Below are positions 1 through 11,670 of a stretch of DNA of 11,788 bases, piece after piece. The stretch's first letter is position 1. Each line of letters opens with the position of its first letter. Origin of the DNA: Lentzea aerocolonigenes (GTDB lineage Bacteria; Actinomycetota; Actinomycetes; Mycobacteriales; Pseudonocardiaceae); the NCBI RefSeq assembly GCF_000955955.1, contig NZ_JYJG01000534.1, forward strand, positions 1-11,788, given 5' to 3'. The position numbers and the translations under genes were made by a program. The notes under the pieces are model-generated. The model did no database searches. It saw only the letters and a program-made list of their open reading frames with translations, and was not told the origin of the DNA.

Positions 1-2472
1 GTGGACGACCGGCCCGAGGGAGGCAGCGAGATCACCGACGGTGCGGTGCTCGTAGAACACCTCCAGTTCCAGAGCACCGAAATGCGCCTGCAACGCGACC
101 GCGGCCTCGACCAGCGCGAGCGACGAGGCACCGAGTTCGGCCAGCGCGCTGTCCGCCGTCAGAGAACCCTGCGGCAGTGCGAGCACGTCGGTCAGCGCGT
201 CGACAACGATGTCGAGAGCATCACGCCGTTCGGCACCCGCGGCCTCGCCGAGCTCGCGTGCGCCGGTCGCGTTCTCGGCCAGCGCGACGAGCGTGCTCAG
301 GCGCGGCCCCGCGTCGACCACCGCGGCAGCGGGAGCCGCCGGGGCGTCGTCGGCCACAGCGGCCGACTCCGGGTCGAAGCGGATCCCGGCGGCCTGTTCC
401 GGCGTCAGCAGGTAGTCCGTGCCACCGGCTGCTGGTACTCCGTCGGCGACGCTGTCGAGAAAACGCCGGGCAGGTTCGTTCTTGGCCGTGGGCACGTAGG
501 GCAGGCGGATCTTCGTGGACGTGTCCGATCCGAGCGCCGCCAGGACCTGGTGCTCCACGCCCCTCCCGAGCACCCGGCAGCTGAGCAGGAACGTGTCCAC
601 GACCAGCTCGTCGGTGTCCTGCCTGCTGATCACGGCGCCCACCACGCCGTGGTCGCCGAAGCGGTCGGTCGCGCGCACCACCTGGCAGCGCATGCCCGGT
701 TCCGCCAGCAAGGCGCGGAGCTCGTTCTCCTGCCGGCGCACGGTGCTGAAGTTGAACTGGTTGGTGCGCTGGGTCATCTGCGCGACGCGGCGCAGATCTG
801 CCTCCGTCGCGGGCGTGCTGGTCACGACCAGGTTCAGGCCTGCGATGAAGTCGGCGAAGGTCAGCGAGGACCGGCGGAGCTCACCGCGGTCCCGGTTGGC
901 GTCGTAGGCGGCCGCCCGGCCGCGGTCCTCCTCCGTCACCACCAGGCGGTCGAACGCCCACACGCGGTCCAGGAAGGGCTTGCCGGCCTCCTGGTCGGCG
1001 GGCACGGTGAGCGCCAGCACACCGGGGCACGCGGCACGGACCTGAGCGACCTCGACCGGGTTGTCGTCGAGGAAGACGAAGCTGTCGAGGCCGAGGTTCA
1101 GCTCCGCCGCCAGCCGCGCCAGGCCGACCGGCTTCGGGTCCCACCCGATCGCCTGCGCCGCAACGTGGTCGGACCGCAACGGGAACTCGGACCGAACGCG
1201 GAAGACCTCGGCCACCGTCTCCGGGTCGTTCTTGCTGGCGAGTGCGAGCAGCACGCCCCGCTCGCGCAGGGCGACGGCCCACTCCTGCACGTGGCGGTGA
1301 CCGTCGGTCAGCCGGACCCCTTCAGGACCGTCCTCGCCGGCCACACCGGCCCACAGCGTGTTGTCGCAGTCGAGGACGAGGACCTTGAACGGCCGGGCGA
1401 GCAGGGAGTGCACCGAGCGGGCGATCCCCGTGGCGAGGGCGTCGTAGCCCGCCGGTGTGTAGGCGAGGTGCGCCATGCGGTAGCGGGCCTCGTCGTGCAC
1501 GTCACCGGGATCGGTGCCACCGTGCCAGTCCTCGGCGCCGAGCAGATGCACCCCCGAGGTGTCACGCAGGTCGTCGAAAAGCCTGTGCCGGCGCGGATCC
1601 TCGCCGGAGACGGACGGGCTGGGACAGACGCGCAGCAGCAGCGGGACGCGTGCCCGGGCGGCGAACGACCGCACGGCCGCCGCGAGCTCGCGCAGGTTGC
1701 GCTCGGTCTCCTGCGCCGGCCAGTCGTCGAACCGCACCAGCACCACCGCACAGCCCGACCGCACCGATCCGAGCGTGCTCGCGGGGTCGAGCAGCTCCTG
1801 GAACACCTGGCCGAACGGCGCGAGCACCGGGCGCAGGCCGACACCGAGGTCGCGGCACCACGCGGTGAGAGGCTCCGCCAGCGGATCGGTGGTGAAGGTC
1901 GCGGCGATGGCGAGCGCGGCGCCGTCCGCCGCCGCCTCGGGGTTCGCCGCCGGTACCTCGGCTTCGGGTGCGAAGGTCTCCAGCACCTCGACCTGACCGG
2001 CGCTCACCCGGCCGAGTCCGGCCACCGCGGCCGCGGCGACTCCCTCGGTGGCGAGCCCGTCGACGACTCCGCGCACCGTCGGTGAGAACCCGGTGTCCAG
2101 CCTCGGCGGCCGCAGGACGAGCCCGCCGAGGCCGGGGTGCCGGGTGATCGTCGCGCGCAGCAGTTCCTCGCAACGGCGCTTCGCGTCCACGTAGTGCTGC
2201 CAGGTCGGCGCGGCGCCGGAGACCACGTCACTGGACACGAGCACGACCTGGCCACCGGCCACCGACAGCGGCTCGGCCAGGGCGGACAGCGGTGCGGACA
2301 CCGCCTCGACGGCCGAGGTCACGTACTCGGCGGCACGATCGGCGGTGTCCGGCCCCGGCACCAGCGGCTGGAAGCTCGGGAACGCGTTGAGCACCAGGAG
2401 GTCCAGCCTGCCCGCCTGCGCGAGCACGTGCTCGCGCAGCCGGGCGCACTCGGCGGGATCGGCCGGGCGCAC
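1..2472 (-). CDS. 3' part of PKS-like protein: SDR C-terminal half, FkbH (HAD) domain, carrier protein (partial, runs off left edge)
   Basis: This frame stays open from a GTG at 2472 to the window edge (824 codons) and continues the gene that starts at 3458; the 23-bp duplication separates the two. Numbering below assumes one repeat copy is removed. It completes a short-chain reductase (S402, Y415, K419 triad). It then carries an FkbH region, entered through a typical linker (VFQELLDPAS), with HAD motifs LDCDNTLW (D689, D691), SKND (about 734-737), LDDNP (D790, D791) and the family hallmark QRTNQFN (889-895). A carrier-protein domain follows, with LGASS placing the phosphopantetheine serine at about S1105. 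FkbH proteins take 1,3-bisphosphoglycerate, remove phosphate and load a glyceryl unit on a carrier. I see no ribosome-binding site before 2472, so independent translation is doubtful. The domains look intact, with no stop over 2.4 kb. Whether more domains follow to the left cannot be seen. Confidence 0.85.
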   Translation of the reverse strand, partial: MRPADPAECARLREHVLAQAGRLDLLVLNAFPSFQPLVPGPDTADRAAEYVTSAVEAVSAPLSALAEPLSVAGGQVVLVSSDVVSGAAPTWQHYVDAKRRCEELLRATITRHPGLGGLVLRPPRLDTGFSPTVRGVVDGLATEGVAAAAVAGLGRVSAGQVEVLETFAPEAEVPAANPEAAADGAALAIAATFTTDPLAEPLTAWCRDLGVGLRPVLAPFGQVFQELLDPASTLGSVRSGCAVVLVRFDDWPAQETERNLRELAAAVRSFAARARVPLLLRVCPSPSVSGEDPRRHRLFDDLRDTSGVHLLGAEDWHGGTDPGDVHDEARYRMAHLAYTPAGYDALATGIARSVHSLLARPFKVLVLDCDNTLWAGVAGEDGPEGVRLTDGHRHVQEWAVALRERGVLLALASKNDPETVAEVFRVRSEFPLRSDHVAAQAIGWDPKPVGLARLAAELNLGLDSFVFLDDNPVEVAQVRAACPGVLALTVPADQEAGKPFLDRVWAFDRLVVTEEDRGRAAAYDANRDRGELRRSSLTFADFIAGLNLVVTSTPATEADLRRVAQMTQRTNQFNFSTVRRQENELRALLAEPGMRCQVVRATDRFGDHGVVGAVISRQDTDELVVDTFLLSCRVLGRGVEHQVLAALGSDTSTKIRLPYVPTAKNEPARRFLDSVADGVPAAGGTDYLLTPEQAAGIRFDPESAAVADDAPAAPAAAVVDAGPRLSTLVALAENATGARELGEAAGAERRDALDIVVDALTDVLALPQGSLTADSALAELGASSLALVEAAVALQAHFGALELEVFYEHRTVGDLAASLGPVVH

Positions 2473-3458
2473 TCAGCGGGATCGGCCGCGTCGGAACGCA
2501 CCGCGTGCACGCGCCCGGCAGCCGTTCCGAGCCCGGCCAGCAGGTCCGGCGGAAAGCCGGGGTCCCGGCGGTGGGTGACGTACACGTGCGCACCGCGCAG
2601 AGCCAGGGCGGCCGCGAAGGCGGCACCGAAGCCGCGGCTGCCACCGGTGAGCACGGCGACCCTGCCCTCCAGGTCGACGTCCTGGCCGGCGAGGGCGGCG
2701 GCCAGTACGTGCGCGTCCGGTTCGGCCGGGACGGCCCTGGCGACGACGGCCAGCTCGGCGCGCCCCAGGCCAGGCAGCGCGCCGTCGAACCGCACCAGGT
2801 CACGGCGTTCGTCCACGGCCGCGACCTGGATCGAGCCGTCGCCGGTCGCGGCCGGGTCGAACTCGACGGTCAGGGAGGAGATCAGCGACTGCCGGCCGGG
2901 AACCTCCATGCCCGCCAGGTAGCTCGCCCAGCCGAGCAGCCGTGCGACCTCTTCACGCACACCGCTGCCGATGCGGCCGAGCAGGTCCGCGAAGTCACCG
3001 GGATCGCTGCGGTAGGAGATCGGGAGGCACTGTCCTGTGTGGAGCTCCGCCGGCGCGCGGTCAGCGGCCTGCCGCCTGCGTTCTCCCGACCCCACGCGCA
3101 CCGCGCCGACCACGGGGCCGCCCGTGTCTCCCAGCTCGACGTCGACGGTCGCGATCGGCTGCCCGCCGTCAGACAGTTCGAGGCGGACACTCCCGTTCTC
3201 GGCGCGCCGCACGTCCAGCGCGTACGCCTGCGCCGAGTAGACAGCGGCGTGGAAACGCGCTCGGACCCGCCGCACCACCGCGGCGTCCTCCGCGGACAGG
3301 CCCGCCAGCGCGTGGAGGACGGTGAGTGCGCCTTGCACCACCTCCGCGCCGAATCCGCTCCTGGACGCGTAGTCCGCGTCCAGGTGCAACGGGTTGAGAT
3401 CGCCGCTCGATTCTGCGAATCGGCTGAGATCGTGTGGAACGACGTGGACTGCGAGCAC
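2319..3458 (-). CDS. 5' part of PKS-like protein: double-hotdog MaoC-type dehydratase plus SDR N-terminal half (frameshifted)
   Basis: The first hotdog shows the R-specific hydratase signature, with D20, N22 and H25 in SGDLNPLHLD followed by a YA..SGFG stretch. A second, catalytically plain hotdog lies at about 150-245. An SDR nucleotide-binding motif TGGSRGFG follows at 271-278. I place the start at GTG 3458 because AAGGGAG sits 6 nt upstream and the hotdog fold begins at once; a GTG at 3512 is in frame but lacks such a site. At about residue 326 the 23-bp tandem duplication shifts the frame, and translation ends at TGA 2319-2321 after 379 aa, before the SDR catalytic residues. Inferred role in the intact protein: dehydrate, and with the reductase re-reduce, the three-carbon unit loaded by the FkbH domain. 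As read, the product is a truncated dehydratase with half a Rossmann fold. A sequencing error is an alternative. Confidence 0.82.
   Translation of the reverse strand: MLAVHVVPHDLSRFAESSGDLNPLHLDADYASRSGFGAEVVQGALTVLHALAGLSAEDAAVVRRVRARFHAAVYSAQAYALDVRRAENGSVRLELSDGGQPIATVDVELGDTGGPVVGAVRVGSGERRRQAADRAPAELHTGQCLPISYRSDPGDFADLLGRIGSGVREEVARLLGWASYLAGMEVPGRQSLISSLTVEFDPAATGDGSIQVAAVDERRDLVRFDGALPGLGRAELAVVARAVPAEPDAHVLAAALAGQDVDLEGRVAVLTGGSRGFGAAFAAALALRGAHVYVTHRRDPGFPPDLLAGLGTAAGRVHAVRSDAADPAECARPIPPSAPGCASTCSRRRAGWTSWCSTRSRASSRWCRGRTPPIVPPST
2439..2488. repeat. 23-bp tandem duplication causing a frameshift
   Basis: The 23 bp at 2441-2463 recur at 2464-2486 with one difference (g at 2452, a at 2475); two more matching bases flank each side. 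23 is not a multiple of three. Both copies encode DPAECAR, in different frames, and deleting one copy joins the upstream frame to the downstream frame exactly. The differing base also creates a TGA in the downstream frame, immediately followed by GTG 2472. The single mismatch argues mildly for a real duplication that has since diverged rather than an assembly stutter, but does not settle it. Confidence 0.9.
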
Positions 3459-3660
3459 AGAGGACTCCCTTTCGACGCGCCCGTGAACGGACAGAGCAGG
3501 ATTGAGGGCCACGCTATTGACGTCGAAGCAGAGCCAGAAGCTCGCGTTCCAACCCTTGGGTCGAGCGACGGAATCGCTGTTGCCGAAGATTCAAATAAAA
3601 TGCGGCTTCACCTTGGTCCTGGTTCGAGTTCCGCGCGCTGCTCCGGAATTTCACAAGGCA
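3459..3660. promoter_or_regulatory. Intergenic region upstream of the PKS-like gene
   Basis: About 200 bp separate the stop of the Nudix gene from the start of the PKS-like gene, both on minus. A short A/T-rich block near 3580-3605 stands out from the surrounding G/C and is a plausible place for a minus-strand promoter. I could not identify convincing -35/-10 elements or a strong terminator hairpin. Confidence 0.35.
3465..3471 (-). promoter_or_regulatory. Ribosome-binding site deciding the start of the PKS-like gene
   Basis: Minus-strand AAGGGAG, close to the anti-16S consensus, is 6 nt before GTG 3458. It favours this start over the in-frame GTG at 3512, which would add 18 residues with no resemblance to a hotdog N-terminus. 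Confidence 0.75.
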
Positions 3661-4221
3661 TCATTGTGTGAACACCGCATCAACTCCGCCCGGCTGTTTT
3701 GCCGCCAGGACGAAGAGCTGGTCGAGGTAGGAGTTTCCGGTGGGTTTCGTCAGCGGCCACCAGACGAAGTCGTCGTGCGTGCTGTCGACCCGCGGCCGGG
3801 CGTCGTGCTCGGCGGAGGCGAGAAAGGTGACGTTGACGGTGTGAGTGGGGGAGTCGCCGTGCGCTGAGGCCTCGAAGACGGTGGAGAAGGTGCCCAGCAC
3901 GCCACGCAGGGTCAAGCTGAGCCCGGACTCCTGCTCGGCCGTGCGCAACGCGGCCTCGGCGAGCTGCTCGCCCTTGCGCATGCGGCCACCCTGCAGCCAC
4001 AGGGAGCCTGCCTGCGGTTCCTGGCTGCGTCGGGTGAGCAGCGCCTCGCCGGCGCGGACGACGAGCGTGTCGACGCAGACGACCGGCATCCGTTCCAGGA
4101 TTTCGCGGTACAGCTGCTCCGGCACCCACGCGTGCCCCGTCGCACCGCGACCGTCATGCCAGTCAAGCGTGGGTGAAGTGGGCAATTTGTCCGATTGCAC
4201 GGGGGTGAGTGGTCCAGGCAT
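3661..4221 (-). CDS. Nudix hydrolase, GDP-mannose mannosyl hydrolase-like
   Basis: 186 aa. The Nudix box spans G79-L101 (GRMRKGE, then R93, E98 and G100). The usual RE pair is RT, and the box is otherwise degenerate in the way seen in GDP-mannose mannosyl hydrolases. Other GDPMH-like features are the VDTLVV strand, GSLWLQGGR before the box, a THTVNVTF strand (H127) and HDDFVWW at 149-155. Family members cleave GDP-hexoses to GDP and the free sugar. I chose ATG 4221 because GGAGG lies just upstream and the protein then has typical GDPMH length; the frame stays open further upstream but without family sequence. It is transcribed away from the epimerase operon and shares its control region. Inferred role: release of free L-hexose from the epimerised GDP-sugar, or simple GDP-mannose hydrolysis. 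Confidence 0.85.
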   Translation of the reverse strand: MPGPLTPVQSDKLPTSPTLDWHDGRGATGHAWVPEQLYREILERMPVVCVDTLVVRAGEALLTRRSQEPQAGSLWLQGGRMRKGEQLAEAALRTAEQESGLSLTLRGVLGTFSTVFEASAHGDSPTHTVNVTFLASAEHDARPRVDSTHDDFVWWPLTKPTGNSYLDQLFVLAAKQPGGVDAVFTQ

Positions 4222-4286
4222 CGTCCTCCGCCTTCCGCTGATGGTCACGGCCACGTCCGGACGTCGCATTCTGGTCCGGCCGCGGA

Positions 4287-4306
4287 TGGGAAGTTCCGGC
4301 TTCCCA
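4287..4306. repeat. Inverted repeat, 7-bp arms, 6-nt spacer
   Basis: TGGGAAG at 4287-4293 is mirrored by CTTCCCA at 4300-4306. It lies about 66 bp upstream of the Nudix start, so it could be an operator or leader hairpin for that gene. Chance occurrence is possible. Confidence 0.45.
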
Positions 4307-4383
4307 CCGGCTACGACGAAGTCGGCCGCCTTGCGCGCATTCCCGCTGGAAGGTATGGACCAGTTCTGCACCGGACCACCTCC

Positions 4384-4402
4384 CGTCCCATTCGCTGGGA
4401 CG
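4384..4402. repeat. Inverted repeat, 7-bp arms, 5-nt loop
   Basis: CGTCCCA at 4384-4390 pairs with TGGGACG at 4396-4402, around the middle of the divergent region. It is a possible regulator site or small hairpin; function unknown. Confidence 0.4.
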
Positions 4403-4523
4403 AACTCCGCTCCTCCGGATCCGGGAAGAATGCCGTCCCGAGCGCTGGAACGGGTTCTGGATGGGCGATACCGGCTGTCACATACTCGCTCCACCCGACC
4501 GGCACCGCGGCGCCACCGCCGAC

Positions 4524-4546
4524 AGTTCTCCCGGCAATCGAGAACT
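4524..4546. promoter_or_regulatory. Candidate operator: AGTTCTC-N9-GAGAACT
   Basis: Perfect 7-bp arms (4524-4530 and 4540-4546) with a 9-bp spacer, half-sites 16 bp apart centre to centre. The dyad geometry suits a dimeric helix-turn-helix repressor. It is 118 bp before the epimerase start. No regulator gene is in the window, so the cognate protein is unknown. Confidence 0.5.
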
Positions 4547-4547
4547 T

Positions 4548-4588
4548 CCGGCAGTGACAACGGTCAGGCCGCCGGAATGTCACGCCGG
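4548..4588. repeat. Long imperfect inverted repeat in the operon leader
   Basis: The left arm at 4548-4559 (CCGGCAGTGACA) pairs with the right arm at 4578-4588 (TGTCACGCCGG) with a single bulged base, enclosing 18 nt. The right arm overlaps the 4585-4598 palindrome, so alternative structures are possible. It could be an RNA hairpin in the 5' leader or a protein-binding dyad. Confidence 0.45.
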
Positions 4589-4598
4589 CAGCTGCCGG
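4585..4598. repeat. 14-bp perfect palindrome upstream of the epimerase operon
   Basis: CCGGCAGCTGCCGG reads the same on both strands and ends 66 bp before the operon start codon. It is a possible operator half-pair or crossover point between competing stems. Confidence 0.45.
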
Positions 4599-4664
4599 TC
4601 CAGAAGTCCATCGGCGGCTGCCCGAAAAACCAGACTGCCCGATCTCACGAATGGAAAATCCTTC

Positions 4665-5696
4665 ATGACCCAGCAGGAATTCTGGCGCGGCAAGCGAGTG
4701 CTGGTCACCGGCGGCTGCTCGTTCATCGGATCGCACCTCGTGGAGCACCTGGTCGGTGCCGGCGCCAGGGTGCGCGTCGCCGACGACCTCAGTTCGGGAC
4801 GCCTGGAGAACCTCAGCGACGTTCCGGAGTCCGCCTGGGAGTTCGTGGAGGGCGACCTCTGCGACCCGCGGCTCGCCGCCGAGGTGATGCGCGGCATCGA
4901 CGTCGTCTTCCACCTCGCCGCGATCCACGGGGGCAGGGGGTTCATCGAGCTGCACCAGGCCGCGTGCTCACGCAACTTCGTCCTGGACGGCGTGGTCTCG
5001 CAGGCGGCGGTCGACGCGGGAGTGGAGAACTTCGTGTTCGCCTCCTCCGGCTGCGTCTACCCGGTCGACCTGCAGGCCGACGTGAACGAGGAGGTCCGGC
5101 TCTCGGAACCGCAGGTGGGGCCGCCCTTCCACGCGGACGGGATCTACGGCTGGGCCAAGCTGATGACGGAGCAGCGGCTCGCCGCGCTCCACGCCGAGCT
5201 CGGGTTCCCGTCGGTGTCGTGCCGCCTGTTCACGGTCTACGGCGAGCGTTGCCCGGAGAGCCACGCCCTGACCGCCATGGTGGGCCGGGCGTTCATCCAG
5301 CAGAAGCCCTTCGAGGTGTGGGGTGACGGGACCCAGATCCGCAACTGGACCTACGTCACGGACATCGTGCGCGGCCTGGTCCTCGCCGGAGAACGCGTCC
5401 ACGACGGCAGCGCGATCAACCTCGGCACCGAGGAGCCGATCCAGGTCAAGGAAGCGGCCAGGATGATCCTGGAGTTCACCGGCCAGGCCGACACGGAGAT
5501 CAAGCCGCTGCCGGACAAGCCGACCGGCCCCTACAACCGGGTCGCGTCCGCGGCCATGGCGTTCGAGCGGCTCGGCTGGACGCCGGAGGTGCCGTTCCAC
5601 ACCGGCCTCAAGAGGCTCACCGAGTGGTACTTCGAGTCGCGTCTGGCGGAGCGGATGACGACGGACGAGTTCGCCGAGCGCCTGACCACGAGGTAG
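4665..5696 (+). CDS. NAD-dependent sugar epimerase, GDP-mannose 3,5-epimerase-like
   Basis: 343 aa extended SDR. The dinucleotide motif TGGCSFIG is at 15-22 and LAAIHGGRGFI at 84-94, closely resembling the LAA..GG.GFI stretch of plant GDP-mannose 3,5-epimerase (GME). SSGCVYP at 127-133 keeps the cysteine (C130) that in GME is an acid/base residue. The catalytic Y161 and K165 are present, followed by EVWGDGTQIRNWTY (217-230). The second GME acid/base lysine (K217 in the Arabidopsis enzyme, from memory) aligns by eye with H200. GME converts GDP-D-mannose to GDP-L-galactose and GDP-L-gulose; a related epimerase is assigned to L-gulose formation in bleomycin clusters. ATG 4665 was chosen because it directly precedes the fold; the ribosome-binding site is weak (GGAAAA). 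First gene of a tight operon; its stop is 2 nt from the next start. Alternative: another NDP-sugar 4-epimerase. Confidence 0.85.
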   Translation: MTQQEFWRGKRVLVTGGCSFIGSHLVEHLVGAGARVRVADDLSSGRLENLSDVPESAWEFVEGDLCDPRLAAEVMRGIDVVFHLAAIHGGRGFIELHQAACSRNFVLDGVVSQAAVDAGVENFVFASSGCVYPVDLQADVNEEVRLSEPQVGPPFHADGIYGWAKLMTEQRLAALHAELGFPSVSCRLFTVYGERCPESHALTAMVGRAFIQQKPFEVWGDGTQIRNWTYVTDIVRGLVLAGERVHDGSAINLGTEEPIQVKEAARMILEFTGQADTEIKPLPDKPTGPYNRVASAAMAFERLGWTPEVPFHTGLKRLTEWYFESRLAERMTTDEFAERLTTR

Positions 5697-5698
5697 TG

Positions 5699-7030
5699 AT
5701 GACCGACGCATCGCGGTTGACACCAGGCCCGGCAGTCACGACCGGAGAACACCGGCGCACGGCGTGGTCCAACTGGAGCGGGGCGGTCCGCGGCATCGCG
5801 GACCGCCTCCTCGCTCCCGGCACCACGGACCAGCTGCGCGAGATCGTGCTCGATGACACCGCACGAGCACACGGCATCAGCGTGGTGGGGTCGGGGCACT
5901 CCTACGCGAACCTCGTCGCGCCGTCCGGCCGGACGCTGATCGACCTGCGCGAGCACCGAGGCGTCGTCGCCGTCGACCCGGCGGCCATGACGGTCACGGT
6001 GAAGTCGGGCACGACGATGCGCGAACTGAACCGGGAGCTCGCCGCCGCGGGCTTCGCGTTGCCGAACCAGAGCGCGATCGACGAGCAGACCGTCGCCGGT
6101 GCCGTCGCCACGGCCACTCACGGGAGCAGCCCGAGGCAGGGCACGCTCTCCAGTCACGTCGTGGCGGCGCGGATCCTGACCGCGGACGGGCAGGTGCGCA
6201 CGATCACGCAGGACGACCCGGAGCTCGACGGCGTCCGCGTGCACCTGGGGTGTCTGGGCGTGGTGCTGGACCTCACCTTCACCATCGTGCCCGGCCACCG
6301 GCTGCGCAAGGTCGTCCTCCGCCGGTCGCTGCCGGATGTGCTGGCCGGTCTGGACGAGTTCCGGGAAGTCCACTTCGGTGGCTTCTGGTGGTACCCGCAC
6401 ACCTCCCAGGCGATCGTCTGGAAGGCCGCGCCGACGAACGAGCCGCCCACCCCGTCACCGGGACCGCCCGGTGCGCTGCTCTCCGCACTGTGCAACAACT
6501 CCTGGCCGCCGCGGGCGGCGGGCGCCGCGCACTACGCGGCGGCACTGGCGGCAGGCCGGGGCGGCGCGCAGGTCATGCGCTGCGACGAGGCTCTGCTGCA
6601 CCACCTCCCACCGCCCGTGCAGGGCACCGAGTACAGCGTCCCGTTCGAACGAGCGGCCGACGCGATCCGCGCCCTGGTCCGGGAGGTACGCAGAGGCGGG
6701 TTGCGCGTCTGCGCACCGGTGGACGTCCGCTTCACCGCCGCGGACACCGCCTGGCTCAGTCCGAGCAGGCAGGCCACCACCTGCCACATCGGCGTGACAC
6801 ACCCCGCGACAGCACGGGATCCCCAGAGGTGGGTCGCGCCGCTCCGCGCCGTGGACTCGGTGCTGTGGGAGTTCGAAGGCCGCCCGCACTGGGCCAAGGT
6901 GCATTCCAGGACGGGCCAGGAGCTGGCCGCGCGCTACCCGGAGTGGGACCGGTTCCAGGACCTGCGCAGGGCCTGGGACCCCGACGGTGTCTTCCTCGGA
7001 AGTCATCTCCGAGAACTCTTCGAGCGCTGA
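5699..7030 (+). CDS. FAD-linked aldonolactone oxidase (L-gulono-/D-arabinono-1,4-lactone oxidase family)
   Basis: 443 aa. An N-terminal FAD-binding (PCMH-type) domain has GSGHSY at 64-69, where H67 is the position covalently flavinylated in many family members, then LPNQSAIDEQTVAGAVATAT (121-140) and THG at 140-142. The C-terminal domain has the EYSVP motif and HWAK at 397-400, the lysine-bearing motif of the ALO family, then a DPDGVFL end. Members oxidise 1,4-lactones such as L-gulono-, L-galactono- or D-arabinono-1,4-lactone to ascorbate or its C5 analogue, or oxidise alditols (AldO). ATG 5699 is 2 nt after the epimerase stop, with GAGG 5 nt upstream overlapping the end of that gene, so the two are co-translated. 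No signal peptide or membrane segment is seen, so it is probably a soluble cytoplasmic oxidase using O2. The lactone specificity cannot be read from sequence. Confidence 0.9.
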   Translation: MTDASRLTPGPAVTTGEHRRTAWSNWSGAVRGIADRLLAPGTTDQLREIVLDDTARAHGISVVGSGHSYANLVAPSGRTLIDLREHRGVVAVDPAAMTVTVKSGTTMRELNRELAAAGFALPNQSAIDEQTVAGAVATATHGSSPRQGTLSSHVVAARILTADGQVRTITQDDPELDGVRVHLGCLGVVLDLTFTIVPGHRLRKVVLRRSLPDVLAGLDEFREVHFGGFWWYPHTSQAIVWKAAPTNEPPTPSPGPPGALLSALCNNSWPPRAAGAAHYAAALAAGRGGAQVMRCDEALLHHLPPPVQGTEYSVPFERAADAIRALVREVRRGGLRVCAPVDVRFTAADTAWLSPSRQATTCHIGVTHPATARDPQRWVAPLRAVDSVLWEFEGRPHWAKVHSRTGQELAARYPEWDRFQDLRRAWDPDGVFLGSHLRELFER

Positions 7031-7050
7031 CCCCCGAGAGGCGAGAGCTC

Positions 7051-7866
7051 ATGGCGATCAAGTTCGGCTATCACACCTGGTCCTACTCCAGCTTCGGCAG
7101 CTGGGTCCCCGCGTACACGCTGGACGAGACGATCAAGCGGCTGGCCCGGATCGGCTACGACGGCATCGAGCTCGGCGCCGCCGCACCCCACGCCTATCCG
7201 CCGTACCTCAGCCAGGCCAGGCGGCGCGAGGTGCGCAGCCTGCTCGACGACCACGGCATCGAGGTCTTGGGCATCGGCCCGGCGCCCTCCGGCGGGCCCG
7301 GCTACAACCCGAGCTCTCCCGTCGCCGAAGAACGCGCAGCGACCGTCGAGCACTACCGCGCGATCAGCGAGCTGTGCGCCGAGTGGGGCGCCGGGTCGAT
7401 GGTCTACCTCCCCGGCTGGACCGTGTTCGGCACCCGGCGGCGGCAGGCCTGGGCGTGGTCGCGAGAGTGGAACCTCTGCGAGAGCGGCGAGGACGCCATG
7501 GAGCTGATGGAGGACATCGAGCGGTCCAACGTGAAGGTGATGTTCGACTGCAACCACGTCCGCTACAGGCGGGAGTCGCTCACCGACCACGTCCACCTGA
7601 TGGGTGCGGACCTGCACCAGATCCACATCTCCGACACGAAGGGTGCTCAGACGCGGTTGCCGGCCGGCCTGGGGGACGAGGACTGGGAAGGCCTGGTCGA
7701 CGCTCTGCTCGACACGGGCTTCGACGGCTACCTCACGGCCGAGACGGGGTTCCACCGCCGCGGGATCGATCCCGACCACGACGCGCGCGCCGGGCTCGGC
7801 TTCCTCAAACCGCTGGTCGAACGGAAGTGCGCCGAACGCGCCGCCGCGGCGAACCTCAACCCCTGA
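7051..7866 (+). CDS. Sugar isomerase/epimerase-like TIM-barrel protein (xylose-isomerase-like), probably with internal deletion
   Basis: 271 aa. N-terminal strands and loops are typical (FGYHTW; RIGYDGIELG at 33-42), and three of four expected metal ligands are visible: D166 (VMFDCNHV), H192 (HQIHISD) and E231 (TAETGF). The D-H spacing of 26 matches D-tagatose 3-epimerase. The first ligand, normally a Glu in an xxEP-type strand about 32 residues before the Asp, is missing: SREW (137-140) runs straight into NLCESGED, a junction that usually has a helix and strand of about 25-28 residues between. The frame is kept. E139 might be a poor substitute. The superfamily includes sugar epimerases, hydroxypyruvate isomerase and UlaE of ascorbate breakdown; the substrate here is unknown. 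It starts 20 nt after the oxidase stop, with a GAGAGG-like site upstream. Confidence 0.8.
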   Translation: MAIKFGYHTWSYSSFGSWVPAYTLDETIKRLARIGYDGIELGAAAPHAYPPYLSQARRREVRSLLDDHGIEVLGIGPAPSGGPGYNPSSPVAEERAATVEHYRAISELCAEWGAGSMVYLPGWTVFGTRRRQAWAWSREWNLCESGEDAMELMEDIERSNVKVMFDCNHVRYRRESLTDHVHLMGADLHQIHISDTKGAQTRLPAGLGDEDWEGLVDALLDTGFDGYLTAETGFHRRGIDPDHDARAGLGFLKPLVERKCAERAAAANLNP

Positions 7867-7904
7867 ACCACAGCCCAGCAACTCGATCGGAAGGTACCGG
7901 CACG

Positions 7905-8216
7905 ATGGAGACAGTCGCCCTGCACACCAGGCTCATTCCGGGCCAGGAAGAGGCCTACGAGGCCGCGCACGCCCGCATCCCCGACGATCTCGACGCGGCG
8001 CTGCGCGCAGCGGGCGTGCGTTCATGGCGGATCTGGCGCAGCGGCCTCGACCTGTTCCACGTCGTCGAGGTGGACGACTACGCGGCCATGATGGAACAGA
8101 TGCACGGGCACCCGGCCGACATCCCGTGGCAGAAGAGAATGGACGAGTTCCTCGACGCCCCACTCGACTACGACTCCGGCCGCTCGGACGCGAAGTTCGT
8201 GTGGGAGCTGCCGTGA
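7905..8216 (+). CDS. L-rhamnose mutarotase-like protein (RhaM/DUF718 family)
   Basis: 103 aa, the usual size for this dimeric alpha/beta-barrel family. H22 (AAHARIP) sits at the same position as the catalytic His of E. coli RhaM, in the matching YxxxH.xIP context. The WRIWRS strand, WQKRMDEFLD helix and a VWELP end also fit. RhaM-type enzymes interconvert alpha and beta anomers of L-rhamnose, and relatives act on L-fucose and other L-sugars. GGAAGG lies 10 nt before ATG 7905. Its TGA overlaps the GTG start of the aldo-keto reductase by 4 bp, so the two are translationally coupled. Inferred role: supply the anomer the dehydrogenase uses, after the sugar is freed from GDP. Confidence 0.88.
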   Translation: METVALHTRLIPGQEEAYEAAHARIPDDLDAALRAAGVRSWRIWRSGLDLFHVVEVDDYAAMMEQMHGHPADIPWQKRMDEFLDAPLDYDSGRSDAKFVWELP

Positions 8217-9220
8217 TCAGCGGACTCGGCCTCGGCGGGTCCGCACTGGGAAACCTGTACCGTGCCGTGTCCGAAGTGGACGCCCGTGCCACCGTCGACG
8301 CCGCGTGGCAAGCGGGCGTCCGGTACTTCGACACCGCTCCGCACTACGGCCTCGGCCTGTCGGAACGGCGGCTCGGGGCGGCACTGGCGGATCGGCCCCG
8401 TTCGGAGTTCGTGATCTCGACCAAGGTCGGCCGGCTGCTGCAGCCCTGCGACAGCGGCGGCGACGACCTGGCCAACGGCTTCGCGGTACCCGCGACCCAG
8501 CACCGGGTGTGGGACTTCAGCGCGGACGGGGTGCGCCGGTCGCTGGAAGCCTCGCTGTCCCGGCTCGGCCTGGACCGGATCGACCTCGTCTACCTCCACG
8601 ATCCTGACGACCACGGCGAGCAGGCACTCCGCGAGGCGTTGCCGGCCTTGGCGGAGCTGAAGGACCAGGGCGTGATCCGCGGGATCGGCGTGGGTGTGAA
8701 CCGGTGGCAGGTGGCGGAGCGGTTCGTGCCGGAGTTCCCCCTGGACCACGTCATGCTGGCCGGCCGGTACACGTTGCTGGAACACGCCACGACGGCGGAC
8801 TTCCTCACGCGGTGCTCGGAACGGGGCGTTTCCGTCGTGGCGGCCGGTGTCTTCAACTCCGGACTGCTGGCCCGCCGCGAGGTCCCGGCCGACGCCACGC
8901 ACGACTACACGACGGCACCGGCCGCGCTGGTCGAACGCGCCCGCAGGATCGCCGAGATCTGCCGGCGGCACGGCGTCTCGCTCCCGCAGGCGGCGCTGCA
9001 CTTCCCGTTCGGGCATCCGGCGGTGCGGGCGATCGCGGTCGGTGCCCGAAAGGCGGCGGAGGTCACCGAGAACGTCGCGATGGCCGCGGGCGAGGTGCCC
9101 GCCGGCGTCTGGTCCGACCTGCGCGCGGAAAACCTGATCTCCTCGAACGTTCCCGTACCTCTGCCACGGGACGGCAAGAAGGCTTCACCGGCCGGCACCG
9201 GGCAGCCCGTCCTGCACTGA
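8213..9220 (+). CDS. Aldo-keto reductase, L-galactose/L-fucose (D-threo-aldose) 1-dehydrogenase-like
   Basis: 335 aa from GTG 8213, which overlaps the preceding stop as GTGA. The AKR catalytic tetrad is complete: D40 (FDTAPHYG), Y45, K71 (ISTKVG) and H129 (VYLHDPD). LGGSALGNLY at the N-terminus and VFNSGLLA in the middle are hallmarks shared with L-fucose dehydrogenase, pyridoxal 4-dehydrogenase and plant L-galactose dehydrogenase. These oxidise an L-sugar at C1 to its lactone with NAD(P)+. Coupling to a mutarotase upstream supports a free-aldose substrate. In the proposed route it makes L-galactono- or L-gulono-1,4-lactone for the FAD oxidase encoded two genes upstream. Oxidation of another aldose or an aldehyde is possible. 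The last 20 residues are a loose, family-unlike tail. Confidence 0.88.
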   Translation: MISGLGLGGSALGNLYRAVSEVDARATVDAAWQAGVRYFDTAPHYGLGLSERRLGAALADRPRSEFVISTKVGRLLQPCDSGGDDLANGFAVPATQHRVWDFSADGVRRSLEASLSRLGLDRIDLVYLHDPDDHGEQALREALPALAELKDQGVIRGIGVGVNRWQVAERFVPEFPLDHVMLAGRYTLLEHATTADFLTRCSERGVSVVAAGVFNSGLLARREVPADATHDYTTAPAALVERARRIAEICRRHGVSLPQAALHFPFGHPAVRAIAVGARKAAEVTENVAMAAGEVPAGVWSDLRAENLISSNVPVPLPRDGKKASPAGTGQPVLH

Positions 9221-9268
9221 GGCCGGCACCGAGCAAGTTGATGTTCTTTCGATCCTCATTGGGGTGTG

Positions 9269-10711
9269 ATGATGGTTGACCTGCAGGGGAACTCCACGCG
9301 CGGGACGGGGTCCGGAAGGCCCGCGAGCTGGCGGCTGCCGCAGGAGTCGACGACAGCGGGTGCGGCGTACCAAGCGGTGCAGGACGAACTGCGCCCGGAC
9401 GTGCGACCGCAGCTGAACCTGGCGACGTTCATCACCACCGGCATGGAACCGGAAGCCGAACGGCTGATGTCCGACTTCCTCTACAACAACACCGTCGATG
9501 GCGTGCAGCCGTTGCACACCGCCGACTTGGCGCAGCGGTGCATCACAGCGCTCGCCGACCTGTGGCACGCTCCCGACCCGGACAGCGCGGTCGGCACCTC
9601 GACCGGTGGCTCCAGCGAGGCCTGCATGCTCGCCGGGCTCGCGATGCTGATGCTGTGGCGCTCCCGCACCGGCGGCTCACGCGGGCGGCCCAACCTGGTC
9701 ATGAGCACCGCCGTGCACGTCTGCTGGGCCAAGTTCTGCGCCTACTGGGACGTCGAGGCGAGGCAGGTCCCGGTGGTGCAAGGCGGCTGCGGCATCGACC
9801 CGCACACCGCGGCCGAGGCGTGCGACAGCAACACCATCGGCGTGGTGACCGTGCTGGGCACCACCTATGACGGCTTCTACGAACCGGTGCAGCAGGTGTG
9901 CGCCGCGCTGGACCGGCGGTGCGCCCGCGACGGCGTCGACGTGCCGGTGCACGTCGACGCGGCCTCCGGCGGGATGGTGGCGCCGTTCCTCGATCCCGCA
10001 CTGGTCTGGGACTTCCGGCTGCCCAGGGTGAGTTCGATCAACACGTCCGGGCACAAGTACGGCTTGGTCGCTCCGGGGCTGGGGTGGCTCGTGTGGCGTG
10101 ACCCGGGCGTGGTGCCCGCCGAACTCGGATTCTCGACCGACTACACCGGTGGCCGCATGTCCACCCAGACCCTCACGTTCACCCGGCCTGTCGCGCCGGT
10201 CATCGCGCAGTACTACCAGTTCCTCCGCCTGGGCGCGGACGGCTACCGGGCTGTCATGCAACGCTGCCGCGACCTCGCCCAGTCACTGGCCGCCCACCTC
10301 GGGCAGTTCCGCGAGTTGCGGGTGGTCTCCTCCGCGGACCACCTGCCCGTGGTCGCGTTCACCACCCACGACCACGCCGGTTTCAGCGTCACCGACCTCG
10401 CCGACCGCCTCCGCCAGCGGGGCTGGCTCGTGCCCACCTACGCACTCCCGTCCGACCAGGCCGACGTCACCGTCGCGAGGATCGTCTGCCGCAACGACCT
10501 CTCCGACGTCCTCGCGCGCCGGCTCGCGCACGACCTGGCCACCGCGGTCACCGCACTCCGCGCCGGATCGTGCTCTCAGCGACGCAGCGACGTGGTGCCG
10601 TCGAGTTCAGAGATCGCCTTGACGATCGACGCCGGGAAGACCTTGGAGCGCATGGGATCCACCGGCCTCGTCGACCACCTCGACACCGCGGTGGCCGCGG
10701 TCACGACCTGA
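9269..10711 (+). CDS. PLP-dependent glutamate decarboxylase-like protein
   Basis: About 480 aa, close to the 466 of E. coli GadB. QLNLATFITTG, ADLWHAP, VGTSTGGSSEACM (108-120) and HVDAASGG (228-235, D230) follow the GAD pattern in order. SINTSGHKYG puts the PLP-binding lysine at K263. D77 aligns with the substrate-contacting Asp of GadB. Expected reaction: L-glutamate to GABA plus CO2 in the cytoplasm; other acidic amino acids are possible. The start is uncertain: GTG 9266, ATG 9269 and ATG 9272 are consecutive in frame, with only a weak GGGG upstream; I chose 9269. It lies 48 bp after the aldo-keto reductase on the same strand, probably in the same transcript. No gadC-like antiporter is in view, so acid resistance is not indicated; supply of an amine building block is an inference. 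Confidence 0.88.
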   Translation: MMVDLQGNSTRGTGSGRPASWRLPQESTTAGAAYQAVQDELRPDVRPQLNLATFITTGMEPEAERLMSDFLYNNTVDGVQPLHTADLAQRCITALADLWHAPDPDSAVGTSTGGSSEACMLAGLAMLMLWRSRTGGSRGRPNLVMSTAVHVCWAKFCAYWDVEARQVPVVQGGCGIDPHTAAEACDSNTIGVVTVLGTTYDGFYEPVQQVCAALDRRCARDGVDVPVHVDAASGGMVAPFLDPALVWDFRLPRVSSINTSGHKYGLVAPGLGWLVWRDPGVVPAELGFSTDYTGGRMSTQTLTFTRPVAPVIAQYYQFLRLGADGYRAVMQRCRDLAQSLAAHLGQFRELRVVSSADHLPVVAFTTHDHAGFSVTDLADRLRQRGWLVPTYALPSDQADVTVARIVCRNDLSDVLARRLAHDLATAVTALRAGSCSQRRSDVVPSSSEIALTIDAGKTLERMGSTGLVDHLDTAVAAVTT

Positions 10712-10746
10712 CGCCCCACCGCATGCCCGCTGTCCGAGATGATCTG

Positions 10747-10778
10747 CCGGCGCACCCCGGCTTCCCGGGGTGCGCCGG
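10747..10778. terminator. Perfect 14-bp hairpin between decarboxylase and methyltransferase genes
   Basis: CCGGCGCACCCCGG (10747-10760) is mirrored exactly by 10765-10778 around a CTTC loop. It starts 36 nt after the decarboxylase stop and ends 5 nt before the GAGGAG ribosome-binding site of the next gene. No T-run follows, which is common for actinobacterial terminators. It could end the operon, attenuate read-through, or shape the leader of the methyltransferase mRNA. Confidence 0.6.
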
Positions 10779-10794
10779 ACGCCGAGGAGTTGTC

Positions 10795-11670
10795 ATGTCC
10801 CACCCGAACGACGAGCCCTTCCCGCTGCCGGGCGTCGATCTGACCCGTCCGAGCGTCGCCCGGATCTACGACTACTACCTCGGAGGAACCACCAACTGGG
10901 AGGTCGACCGGCAGTTCGCCGAGCGCGTCCTGCGCGACTACCCGGTGATCAGGTCGGTCGCCTACGCCAACCGGATGTTCCAGCGCAGGGTGGTGCGGCA
11001 CCTCGTCCGGCTGGGCATCCGCCAGTTCATCGACATCGGGTCCGGCGTTCCCACGATGGGGCACGTGCACGAGGTGGGTGAGCAGGTCGCGCCAGGAGAG
11101 GTGCGGGTCGCCTACGTCGATCACGAGCCGGTGGCCGTCGATCACGCGAACCTGCTGCTCAAAGACCACGGTGACCCCAGCAGGCATGCGGCCGTCCATG
11201 CCGACATGCGTGACCCGGAACGGGTCTGGTCGCGAATCTCGGACACCGGGGTGATCGACCTGGCCGAACCGGCGGCGGTGCTTCTCATGGCGGTGCTGCA
11301 CATCCAGCAGCCACCCCCGCCGGGCAGCGACGACACCGAGGACCTCGGCCCTCACCTCGTCGCCACCTACCGCGACCTGCTCGTGCCGGGGTCATACCTC
11401 TCCCTGTCCCACGTCACCGACACCGAGGTCTCCCGGCAGAGCGCCGCGATGCTCGGCGAACTGAAGAGCCTGTACGCGAACTCGGTCAGCCCCGCCATCT
11501 TCCGCGACCGCAGGGAGATCACCGCCCTCTTCGGAGATTTCACCCTCCTGGAACCGGGGGTCACCTGGGCGCCCGCCTGGCATCCGGAAGAGGCGAGCGA
11601 GCACGATCAGGTAGCGGACTTCACCGATCCGAGCGGGTCGCTGCTCCTGGTCGGCACCGCCCGGAAGTGA
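10795..11670 (+). CDS. SAM-dependent methyltransferase of the Methyltransf_19 (DUF574) type
   Basis: 291 aa. It opens with the family hallmark PSVARIYDYYLGG (19-31), followed by the SAM-binding loop FIDIGSGVPT (78-87), an acidic strand end YVDHEP, and a conserved ALLMAVLHI-like strand (here VLLMAVLHI). These proteins are abundant in actinobacteria, often many per genome, and their substrates are mostly unknown. ATG 10795 has an excellent GAGGAG 5 nt upstream. A strong hairpin separates it from the decarboxylase gene, so it may be a separate unit, and its membership in the cluster is uncertain. No transmembrane segment or signal peptide is visible. Confidence 0.88.
   Translation: MSHPNDEPFPLPGVDLTRPSVARIYDYYLGGTTNWEVDRQFAERVLRDYPVIRSVAYANRMFQRRVVRHLVRLGIRQFIDIGSGVPTMGHVHEVGEQVAPGEVRVAYVDHEPVAVDHANLLLKDHGDPSRHAAVHADMRDPERVWSRISDTGVIDLAEPAAVLLMAVLHIQQPPPPGSDDTEDLGPHLVATYRDLLVPGSYLSLSHVTDTEVSRQSAAMLGELKSLYANSVSPAIFRDRREITALFGDFTLLEPGVTWAPAWHPEEASEHDQVADFTDPSGSLLLVGTARK

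Follow-up and report, generated by a model that had tools for sequence, protein, structure and literature searches.

A conserved, portable gene cassette in Lentzea aerocolonigenes and its relatives: a candidate bacterial route from a GDP-hexose to an ascorbate-type lactone

Can one bacterial gene cluster encode the synthesis of vitamin C? The question is raised by an 11,788-nucleotide stretch of Lentzea aerocolonigenes DNA (contig NZ_JYJG01000534.1, here C194, of a 10.25-Mb assembly in 648 contigs), which over its whole length is referred to as the window. Pfam and NCBIfam scans identified a six-gene set at positions 3661 to 9220, encoding a Nudix hydrolase, a sugar-nucleotide epimerase, a flavin adenine dinucleotide (FAD)-dependent oxidase, a TIM barrel protein, a RhaM-family mutarotase, and an aldo-keto reductase (AKR) (Table 1). 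The Nudix gene is divergent (minus strand) to the other five, and the AKR start overlaps the mutarotase stop by 4 bases. The initial annotation of this DNA had proposed an ascorbate-type pathway from five gene types, all of which are present according to their Pfam domain scores; its gene list was incomplete, as the TIM barrel gene between the oxidase and mutarotase genes was left out. Its observation is confirmed, and its pathway interpretation is supported in part. With confidence just short of even, we favor the reading that these genes form a portable anabolic cassette that would draw on a GDP-hexose (GDP-mannose being the probable one) to make an enediol lactone of the ascorbate type, with L-ascorbate the likeliest product. 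Bacterial de novo synthesis of vitamin C is unsettled, and a clustered set able to supply the oxidase substrate would make the question directly testable in cultured strains. One report (PMC9602106) calls the published evidence for such synthesis relatively scarce and itself makes the case for prokaryotic aldonolactone oxidoreductases from single oxidase genes.

Table 1. Features of the window, with positions, strands, and supporting domain matches.
Feature	Position	Strand	Evidence
Parts of a multidomain protein (FkbH-type, acyl carrier protein [ACP], MaoC-ketoreductase [KR]); outside the cassette core	1..3512	-	Pfam and NCBIfam
Nudix hydrolase, GDP-mannose mannosyl hydrolase (GDPMH) type, 186 aa	3661..4221	-	Pfam PF00293, 47 bits; start set via relatives
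Extended short-chain dehydrogenase/reductase (SDR) NDP-sugar epimerase, GME-like fold, Cys130/His200/Arg292	4665..5696	+	Pfam PF01370, 153 bits
FAD-dependent aldonolactone (or alditol) oxidase, GSGHS, VDVRF, Cys362, HWAK	5699..7030	+	PF01565, 96 bits, and PF04030 (ALO), 150 bits
TIM barrel sugar isomerase/3-epimerase (AP_endonuc_2), xylose-isomerase-like	7051..7866	+	PF01261, 115 bits
RhaM-family sugar mutarotase	7905..8216	+	Pfam PF05336, 68 bits
AKR, L-fucose/L-galactose dehydrogenase type	8213..9220	+	Pfam PF00248, 182 bits
Glutamate decarboxylase (GAD)-family pyridoxal phosphate enzyme	9269..10711	+	TIGR01788, 512 bits
S-adenosyl methyltransferase (PF04672)	10795..11670	+	Pfam, 228 bits

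An epimerase identity of at least 76% defined a set of nine loci (the window, L024 to L029, L137, and L138). Besides the window, these comprise five loci in four Lentzea-type genomes, one Streptomyces locus, and two loci in other Pseudonocardiaceae (L137 in genome G178 and L138 in G219) that belong to another genus of the same family as the window genome, probably Amycolatopsis by the names of oxidase matches at 57% identity. Relatives of the locus occur in Nocardia sp. NRRL S-836, Lentzea albida (two loci), L. xinjiangensis, Lentzea sp. NEAU-D7, and Streptomyces sp. NBRC 110028. The Nudix, epimerase, and oxidase genes are adjacent at all nine loci, and the flanks differ (genes in the relatives were called with a simple codon-usage caller, not a standard program, and most flanking genes were named by eye). 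The TIM barrel gene is intact at seven of the loci and damaged in the window and in NEAU-D7 (L027). Comparison of the window with L024, L026, and L028 gave dN/dS ratios (NG86) of 0.05 to 0.39 for all six genes, which on this sequence measure are under purifying selection. Constant gene company in changing surroundings argues for a functional unit, and the comparison supports the view that the genes are a real, conserved, portable cassette.

The mutarotase and AKR genes stand beside this trio at six loci and not at L029, L137, or L138. Co-occurrence of the five families, which the initial annotation had proposed as a check, thus holds throughout for the trio and at only six of nine loci for the other two. 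The loss of a core gene without replacement, named in the same place as evidence against the pathway, is nearly what the three remaining loci present; each of the genomes without the cassette pair (G178, G219, and G020) carries an L-fucose-type AKR elsewhere (51 to 58% identity), which these genomes could use. A lactonase gene lies beside that noncassette AKR in G219 and G020, and no lactonase match was found within the 3.9 kb examined around the AKR of G178. An AKR relative (E ≤ 1e-25) was present in each of eight genomes searched, that of G021 being the copy in L030, a locus considered below.

Eight of 390 genomes of the family contained the oxidase at E ≤ 1e-60 (G000, G005, G008, G011, G317, G178, G219, and G428), and the oxidase of G428 was only 37% identical, with no other cassette gene in the 14 kb examined. 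Across 396 Actinomycetota genomes, only ten epimerases were found besides that of the window, all at 50 to 55% identity. Genome G017 had an epimerase at 52% and no other cassette match in 50 kb examined. Three oxidases (36 to 39%) were detected in 394 genomes of the class, with no epimerase match in their 4.3-kb loci, and G020 was the only positive in the cassette search among 392 genomes of its genus. The count of nine loci excludes L030, G428, and G017, as well as the oxidase homologues of Lentzea sp. DG1S-22, L. flaviverrucosa, and Streptomyces axinellae.

We infer each substrate and product, the reaction order, and the completeness of the route from the sequences. The epimerase would invert C5 (perhaps also C3) to give GDP-L-galactose and/or GDP-L-gulose, and a single cleavage by the GDPMH-type Nudix hydrolase would yield the free L-sugar together with GDP. 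The RhaM mutarotase would then provide the right anomer, the L-fucose-dehydrogenase-type AKR would oxidize C1 to yield an aldonolactone, and the FAD enzyme would oxidize C2, with the product enolizing to ascorbate. The sole difference between L-galactono- and L-gulono-1,4-lactone lies at C3. Oxidation erases the C2 and C3 configuration of both to give L-ascorbate; a D-configured sugar would lead to isoascorbate. Because the differing C3 becomes part of the enediol, both lactones give L-ascorbate, so that either GDP-L-sugar would serve. The "L-gulose-derived analogue" offered as an alternative product in the initial annotation is therefore no separate outcome, as L-gulose would give L-ascorbate itself. 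In our ranking of products, L-ascorbate or its closest kin stands first, at slightly less than an even chance, and another L-sugar-derived product second, with lower confidence.

For the first step, a profile search of the PDB with the epimerase returned 6pmh (E, 1.8e-45) ahead of the plant GDP-mannose 3,5-epimerase (GM35E, or GME) 2c59 (E, 1.1e-37). Alignment to GM35E showed that Cys130 (At C145), Ser128, Tyr161, Lys165, Arg226, and Arg292 (At R306) are kept. According to PMC8787198, a Cys acid is characteristic of both GM35E and GMER, the base is Lys in the former and His in the latter, and the acidifier of GM35E is Arg. In the AlphaFold2 (AF2) model (pLDDT, 92.4), the top query-normalized TM scores among the top 50 of the fold search (0.87 to 0.88) were to substrate-bound GME chains, and two substrate-free GM35E chains scored 0.78 to 0.79; target-normalized TM favors other enzymes over GM35E, and the first Foldseek rank is 6pmh. 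The epimerase is 26 to 27% identical to plant GM35E chains and 32% identical to a canonical bacterial GM35E (L053, 4802 to 5764; E, 2.6e-78 to 2c59). The cassette epimerase shares a Cys acid, the Tyr/Lys triad, an Arg306 equivalent, GGxGF, and the fold with GM35E, including the Methylacidiphilum enzyme (PMC6678494, where BlmG is also mentioned); it differs in its base, His200, and in its Gly motif, TGGCSFIG. That report characterizes a bacterial GM35E and speculates on a role in lipopolysaccharide.

The second step is suggested by the resemblance of the Nudix protein to GDPMH (WcaH/Gmm/NudD), which is its best PDB match (1rya; E, 3.6e-8). The standard Nudix signature has Glu at usual positions; two of these are replaced in the window box, GGRMRKGEQLAEAALRTAEQESGL, as they are in GDPMH (R-T-A-E-Q-E-S-G-L in the window versus R-L-T-M-A-E-L-G-L in 1rya), and a GGR..K.E start is also common to both. 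The GDP-hexose Nudix hydrolase of the initial annotation is supported by its degenerate box and by its closest solved relative. The protein differs from GDPMH in falling far under the family cutoff (NCBIfam PRK15434, 41.2 versus 146 bits), and activity on GDP-mannose is putative. The E. coli-type WcaH is reported to bind GDP-L-fucose strongly and to cleave it slowly (PMC10037897). GDP-L-fucose is the 6-deoxy analogue of GDP-L-galactose, so that cleavage chemistry on a GDP-L-galactose-like substrate is possible.

The mutarotase and AKR appear to have been recruited from sugar breakdown. The AKR carries D40, Y45, K71, and H129, presumably the catalytic tetrad, as the initial annotation had noted, and its top five PDB matches are plant L-galactose dehydrogenases (best E, 1.9e-34). 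In a tree of 26 sequences (no land plants), the cassette AKRs fall inside the actinobacterial clade of L-fucose-operon AKRs with 100/100 support, apart from algal L-galactose dehydrogenases. This placement rules out an algal/plant-type L-galactose dehydrogenase; of the L-galactose/L-fucose dehydrogenase assignment made earlier, the L-fucose-dehydrogenase type stands and the algal L-galactose-dehydrogenase clade does not. On the NEAU-D7 chromosome, an operon (L126) encodes an FAA hydrolase (FAAH), an enolase-type dehydratase, an SDR, a sugar-binding protein, an ABC ATPase, RhaM, an AKR, and an amidohydrolase that scores best against the NCBIfam model for L-fucono-1,5-lactonase (211 bits; cutoff, 400). 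The L024 cassette copies are 58% (RhaM) and 62% (AKR) identical to those of L126, and gene order and the 4-base overlap are identical in the cassette and the L-fucose operon. By these sequence comparisons, the pair is a paralogue of the L-fucose catabolic pair with the lactonase gone. Since L-fucose is 6-deoxy-L-galactose, this recruitment suggests a substrate resembling L-galactose, and the missing lactonase together with a lactone-oxidase-like gene close by favors its oxidation to a lactone and onward to an ascorbate-type product.

Searches for the lactonase, dehydratase, SDR, and FAAH, all of which L126 has, gave no match in L024 or in L149 (3.9 kb); in the other cassette loci, no lactonase stands beside the AKR according to gene lists. 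Without the lactonase and dehydratase of the L-fucose operon, a lactone need not enter catabolism. Compared with nonphosphorylating L-fucose operons (L126; parts in L127 and L141), the cassette has in common the RhaM-AKR pair, its order, and its overlap (L126 and L141) and lacks the lactonase, enolase-type dehydratase, FAA hydrolase, and importer genes. The window genome itself contains two L-fucose-type catabolic sets, RhaM-AKR-lactonase on G000:C74 and SDR-AKR-FAAH-lactonase on G000:C585. A route for L-glucose and L-galactose in Luteolibacter likewise combines, in one organism, an AKR of the L-galactose dehydrogenase kind with an IolO-type epimerase; in the portion of PMC12632266 available, its use of L-galactose is catabolic and no GDP-sugar enzyme or lactone oxidase is named.

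The oxidase contains both motifs listed in the initial annotation, GSGHS at residue 64 (FAD-His H67) and HWAK at residues 397 to 400. These agree with the GSGHS/HWxK pattern of aldonolactone oxidoreductases; as alditol oxidases also have both, the motifs cannot separate the two types. NCBIfam scores were 267 bits for TIGR01679 (cutoff, 292) and 221 bits for TIGR01678 (cutoff, 397). A Cys is tied to the substrate in aldonolactone oxidoreductases, according to PMC9602106. Cys362 of the window enzyme agrees with the vertebrate GULO sequences and L030, whereas three alditol/xylitol oxidase sequences lack it. In the tree, the cassette oxidases form their own clade, as do the three alditol/xylitol oxidases (100/100). 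The cassette oxidase likely acts on a lactone. Bacterial aldonolactone oxidases and dehydrogenases, such as M. tuberculosis GUDH as described in PMC9602106, have the FAD-His and HWxK in common with the cassette enzyme, which differs in its separate clade, its Ser gatekeeper, and its linkage to upstream pathway genes.

Besides the absence of the AKR and mutarotase from three of the nine loci, a number of features weigh against ascorbate as the product. Several concern the epimerase, which has His200 where GM35E has its catalytic base Lys (At K217). His200 and Arg292 are invariant in 81 of 81 aligned family members, and His200 was no part of the search patterns; Cys130 is also present in all 81, a count that is partly due to selection because one of two search patterns held this Cys. 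The NAD motif is TGGCSFIG, with Ser19, invariant in two alignments, at the middle Gly, and so departs from GxxGxxG (or GxxGxxA). Canonical GM35E identity is ruled out by the His for Lys and the altered glycine motif, and the resemblance to GM35E claimed in the initial annotation extends to the Cys, the Arg, the Ser/Tyr/Lys triad, and the fold. The fingerprint, as read from the alignment, is mixed: the enzyme is equipped for 3/5-epimerization, yet it is no formal GM35E. By sequence, it is about as close to the UDP-glucose-4-epimerase-related 6pmh (E, 4e-35) as to GME (E, 1.2e-31), and its best NCBIfam matches, to models of dTDP-glucose dehydratase and GalE, all fall short of the cutoff.

The wider epimerase family points the same way. 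Among the best 80 of 131 epimerase loci examined, 73 of 74 distant loci had no oxidase or AKR match (many contigs being short), with L030 as the sole exception, and some lie among polysaccharide genes, as judged by eye. In L053, the canonical GM35E is about 4 kb from an epimerase of the Cys-His family (10001 to 10972), so that the two need not share a job. This L053 pair sits, by eye, among glycosyltransferase-like genes. The His200/Arg292 family (L030 to L103) is widespread, occurring in metagenome-assembled genomes (MAGs) named Acidobacteria, Chloroflexi, Omnitrophota, and others, and we know of no function assigned to it. As for the Nudix protein, the L138 copy ties a nicotinamide mononucleotide adenylyltransferase/Nudix model (43.2 bits) with the GDPMH model (43.1 bits), both far under cutoff.

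In the oxidase, the best PDB match is a xylitol oxidase (E, 2.8e-41), and the cassette clade joins the alditol oxidases at 89/89, a value that is not strong and involves a long branch. Two sequences named L-gulono-1,4-lactone dehydrogenase also lack the GULO-type Cys, so that Cys362 is not decisive. The Glu-Arg pair has Asp342 for Glu (Asp342-Arg344), as in L138, L024, and L030, which also have Asp. At the gatekeeper site, mapped via GALDH A113 (8qmy versus the A113G variant 8qnc), the window has Ser125 rather than the Gly associated with O2 use; GULO and L030 have Gly, and L138 has Cys.

The weakest point of the ascorbate reading is the TIM barrel, for which a plain ascorbate route offers no step. 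In the PDB, a full-length relative matches D-tagatose/D-psicose 3-epimerases at a best E of 1.4e-13, relatives of the protein work through enediolates, and one guess is that it would speed the keto-enol step or epimerize a keto intermediate. The window copy lacks 24 residues that are present in all seven intact relatives (an in-frame loss of 72 bases). The deletion removes the stretch with the Glu of IEP, which by homology we take to be a metal ligand, and the window TIM barrel is for this reason probably inactive. The structure model of the TIM barrel is poor (pLDDT, 67.7).

A real though minority possibility, and the strongest rival, is that the cassette makes a nonascorbate L-sugar-derived building block or small molecule, such as a rare ketose, an aldonolactone, or a keto-aldonic acid, and that this compound is either joined to a neighboring natural product or exported alongside it. 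The TIM barrel would then be a core step, and the FAD enzyme would oxidize something other than C2 of an aldonolactone. The TIM barrel gene is indeed intact at all three loci without the AKR as well as at four others, the alditol oxidase leaning of the best PDB match fits this reading, and genes of natural-product type adjoin the cassette in L024 (FkbH-type, ACP, and KR) and L137 (condensation, AMP-binding, and carrier domains). Between the oxidase and TIM barrel genes, L137 has a major facilitator superfamily transporter gene (10636 to 12060; Pfam), and L138 has a gene alike by sequence start and place (7934 to 9358), which suggests export of the product. The cassette nevertheless occurs in unlike surroundings and so is independent of any single natural product, the TIM barrel gene is damaged at two loci where the remaining five genes are kept, and the oxidase carries the GULO-type Cys.

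Decay of the window copy, which would leave this strain without a product, is unlikely, although compatible with any reading for other strains. The TIM barrel deletion is accompanied by a break in the flanking FkbH-type frame near position 2450, where a 23-base near-tandem repeat (within 2430 to 2500) is present that L024 does not have; this insertion is either real decay or an assembly error. Given an assembly in 648 contigs, error is a possible cause of the damaged genes of the window. The low dN/dS values and the open frames of the epimerase, Nudix, oxidase, mutarotase, and AKR genes argue against decay. The other cassette genes are likewise open in NEAU-D7, where the TIM barrel gene is more heavily disrupted.

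We consider quite improbable a scheme in which the Nudix-freed sugar becomes a rare keto-sugar, with the FAD enzyme acting as an oxidase of alditols or sugars, the TIM barrel as a ketose epimerase, and the AKR as a reductase. The xylitol oxidase match, the 89/89 joining of clades, and the D-tagatose/psicose 3-epimerase relatives of the TIM barrel are consistent with such a scheme, but the Cys is absent from the three alditol/xylitol oxidases, which group in a separate clade, and the close kin of the AKR are found in L-fucose oxidation operons with a lactonase. A catabolic or salvage locus for L-fucose or L-galactose, to which the paralogy of the mutarotase and AKR might point, is judged very improbable, as no lactonase stands beside the AKR in the nine cassette loci (gene calls and BLAST, with match searches for L024 and L149), the host has a separate RhaM-AKR-lactonase set (G000:C74), and a GDP-sugar epimerase and hydrolase would have no obvious use in uptake.

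The ascorbate reading receives independent support, on sequence grounds, for the link among epimerase, oxidase, and dehydrogenase from another phylum, on a single MAG contig. In L030 (Cyanobacteria bacterium RYN_339; 1744 to 6334), an epimerase (63% identity), an ABM-fold protein, a lactone oxidase, an AKR, and a glycosyltransferase are encoded in one run. The lactone oxidase reaches the TIGR01679 cutoff (294 bits) and clusters at 94/87, a fork that is not strong, with a fungal sequence and vertebrate GULO, and the AKR matches plant L-galactose dehydrogenase at E = 9.5e-76. With an AKR and an oxidase of more plant- and animal-like appearance, L030 may be a cleaner candidate for bacterial ascorbate synthesis than the window. 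On the other side, AKRs like L-galactose dehydrogenase are common in bacteria (at least 1,835 matches), so that the L030 AKR alone does not imply ascorbate. No Nudix match was found in the 12.7 kb of L030, which extends only 1.7 kb upstream before the contig end, and in 59 relatives of this genome (itself included), the next epimerase was 36% identical.

The proposed route resembles the plant L-galactose (Smirnoff-Wheeler) pathway in its logical order: an enzyme like a GDP-hexose 3,5-epimerase, a step that releases a free L-sugar, an NAD(P)-linked AKR, and an FAD enzyme that oxidizes a lactone. It differs from the plant route in that a Nudix hydrolase stands in place of GDP-L-galactose phosphorylase and a phosphatase, the epimerase has His rather than Lys, the AKR is of the L-fucose-dehydrogenase clade, and the oxidase is of the GSGHS (covalent-FAD) type rather than GALDH; moreover, the cassette genes are clustered and include an additional mutarotase and TIM barrel. 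Neither GDP-L-galactose phosphorylase nor L-galactose-1-phosphate phosphatase was among the called cassette genes (the rest of the genome was not searched). A fuller version of our proposal, doubtful but possible, is that the cassette moves horizontally among bacteria and encodes the whole route from GDP-mannose to L-ascorbate, put together independently of the plant one from a Cys-His polysaccharide-type epimerase, a GDPMH-type Nudix hydrolase in place of phosphorylase and phosphatase, an L-fucose-breakdown mutarotase-dehydrogenase pair minus its lactonase, and a GULO-like FAD enzyme. If so, the logic of the plant route would have been reached a second time, and ascorbate production could draw on a compact set of purely bacterial genes. 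Among the open-access PMC papers listed in our searches, we recognized no report of an actinobacterial or Nudix-linked ascorbate route or of a bacterial gene set of this form.

The genes around the cassette vary. The flanking FkbH-type, GAD, and methyltransferase genes occur at only three of the nine loci (the window, L024, and L025), which weakens the case for membership in one natural-product cluster. Searches with the FkbH-type protein (tblastn) gave matches in L024 and L025 and none in L026 to L028, and the left flank of L029 is cut by the contig end. The GAD match in L027 is only 28% identical and 4 kb off. The surroundings of L026, L027, L028, L137, and L138 are different, as judged mostly from gene lists rather than domain scans. 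At positions 2780 to 8794, L024 encodes a 2,004-aa fusion of KR, FkbH-type HAD, ACP, and a full AdhE-like aldehyde/alcohol dehydrogenase (PRK13805, 1,238 bits), an unusual protein that perhaps has a role in the reductive release of acyl-ACP.

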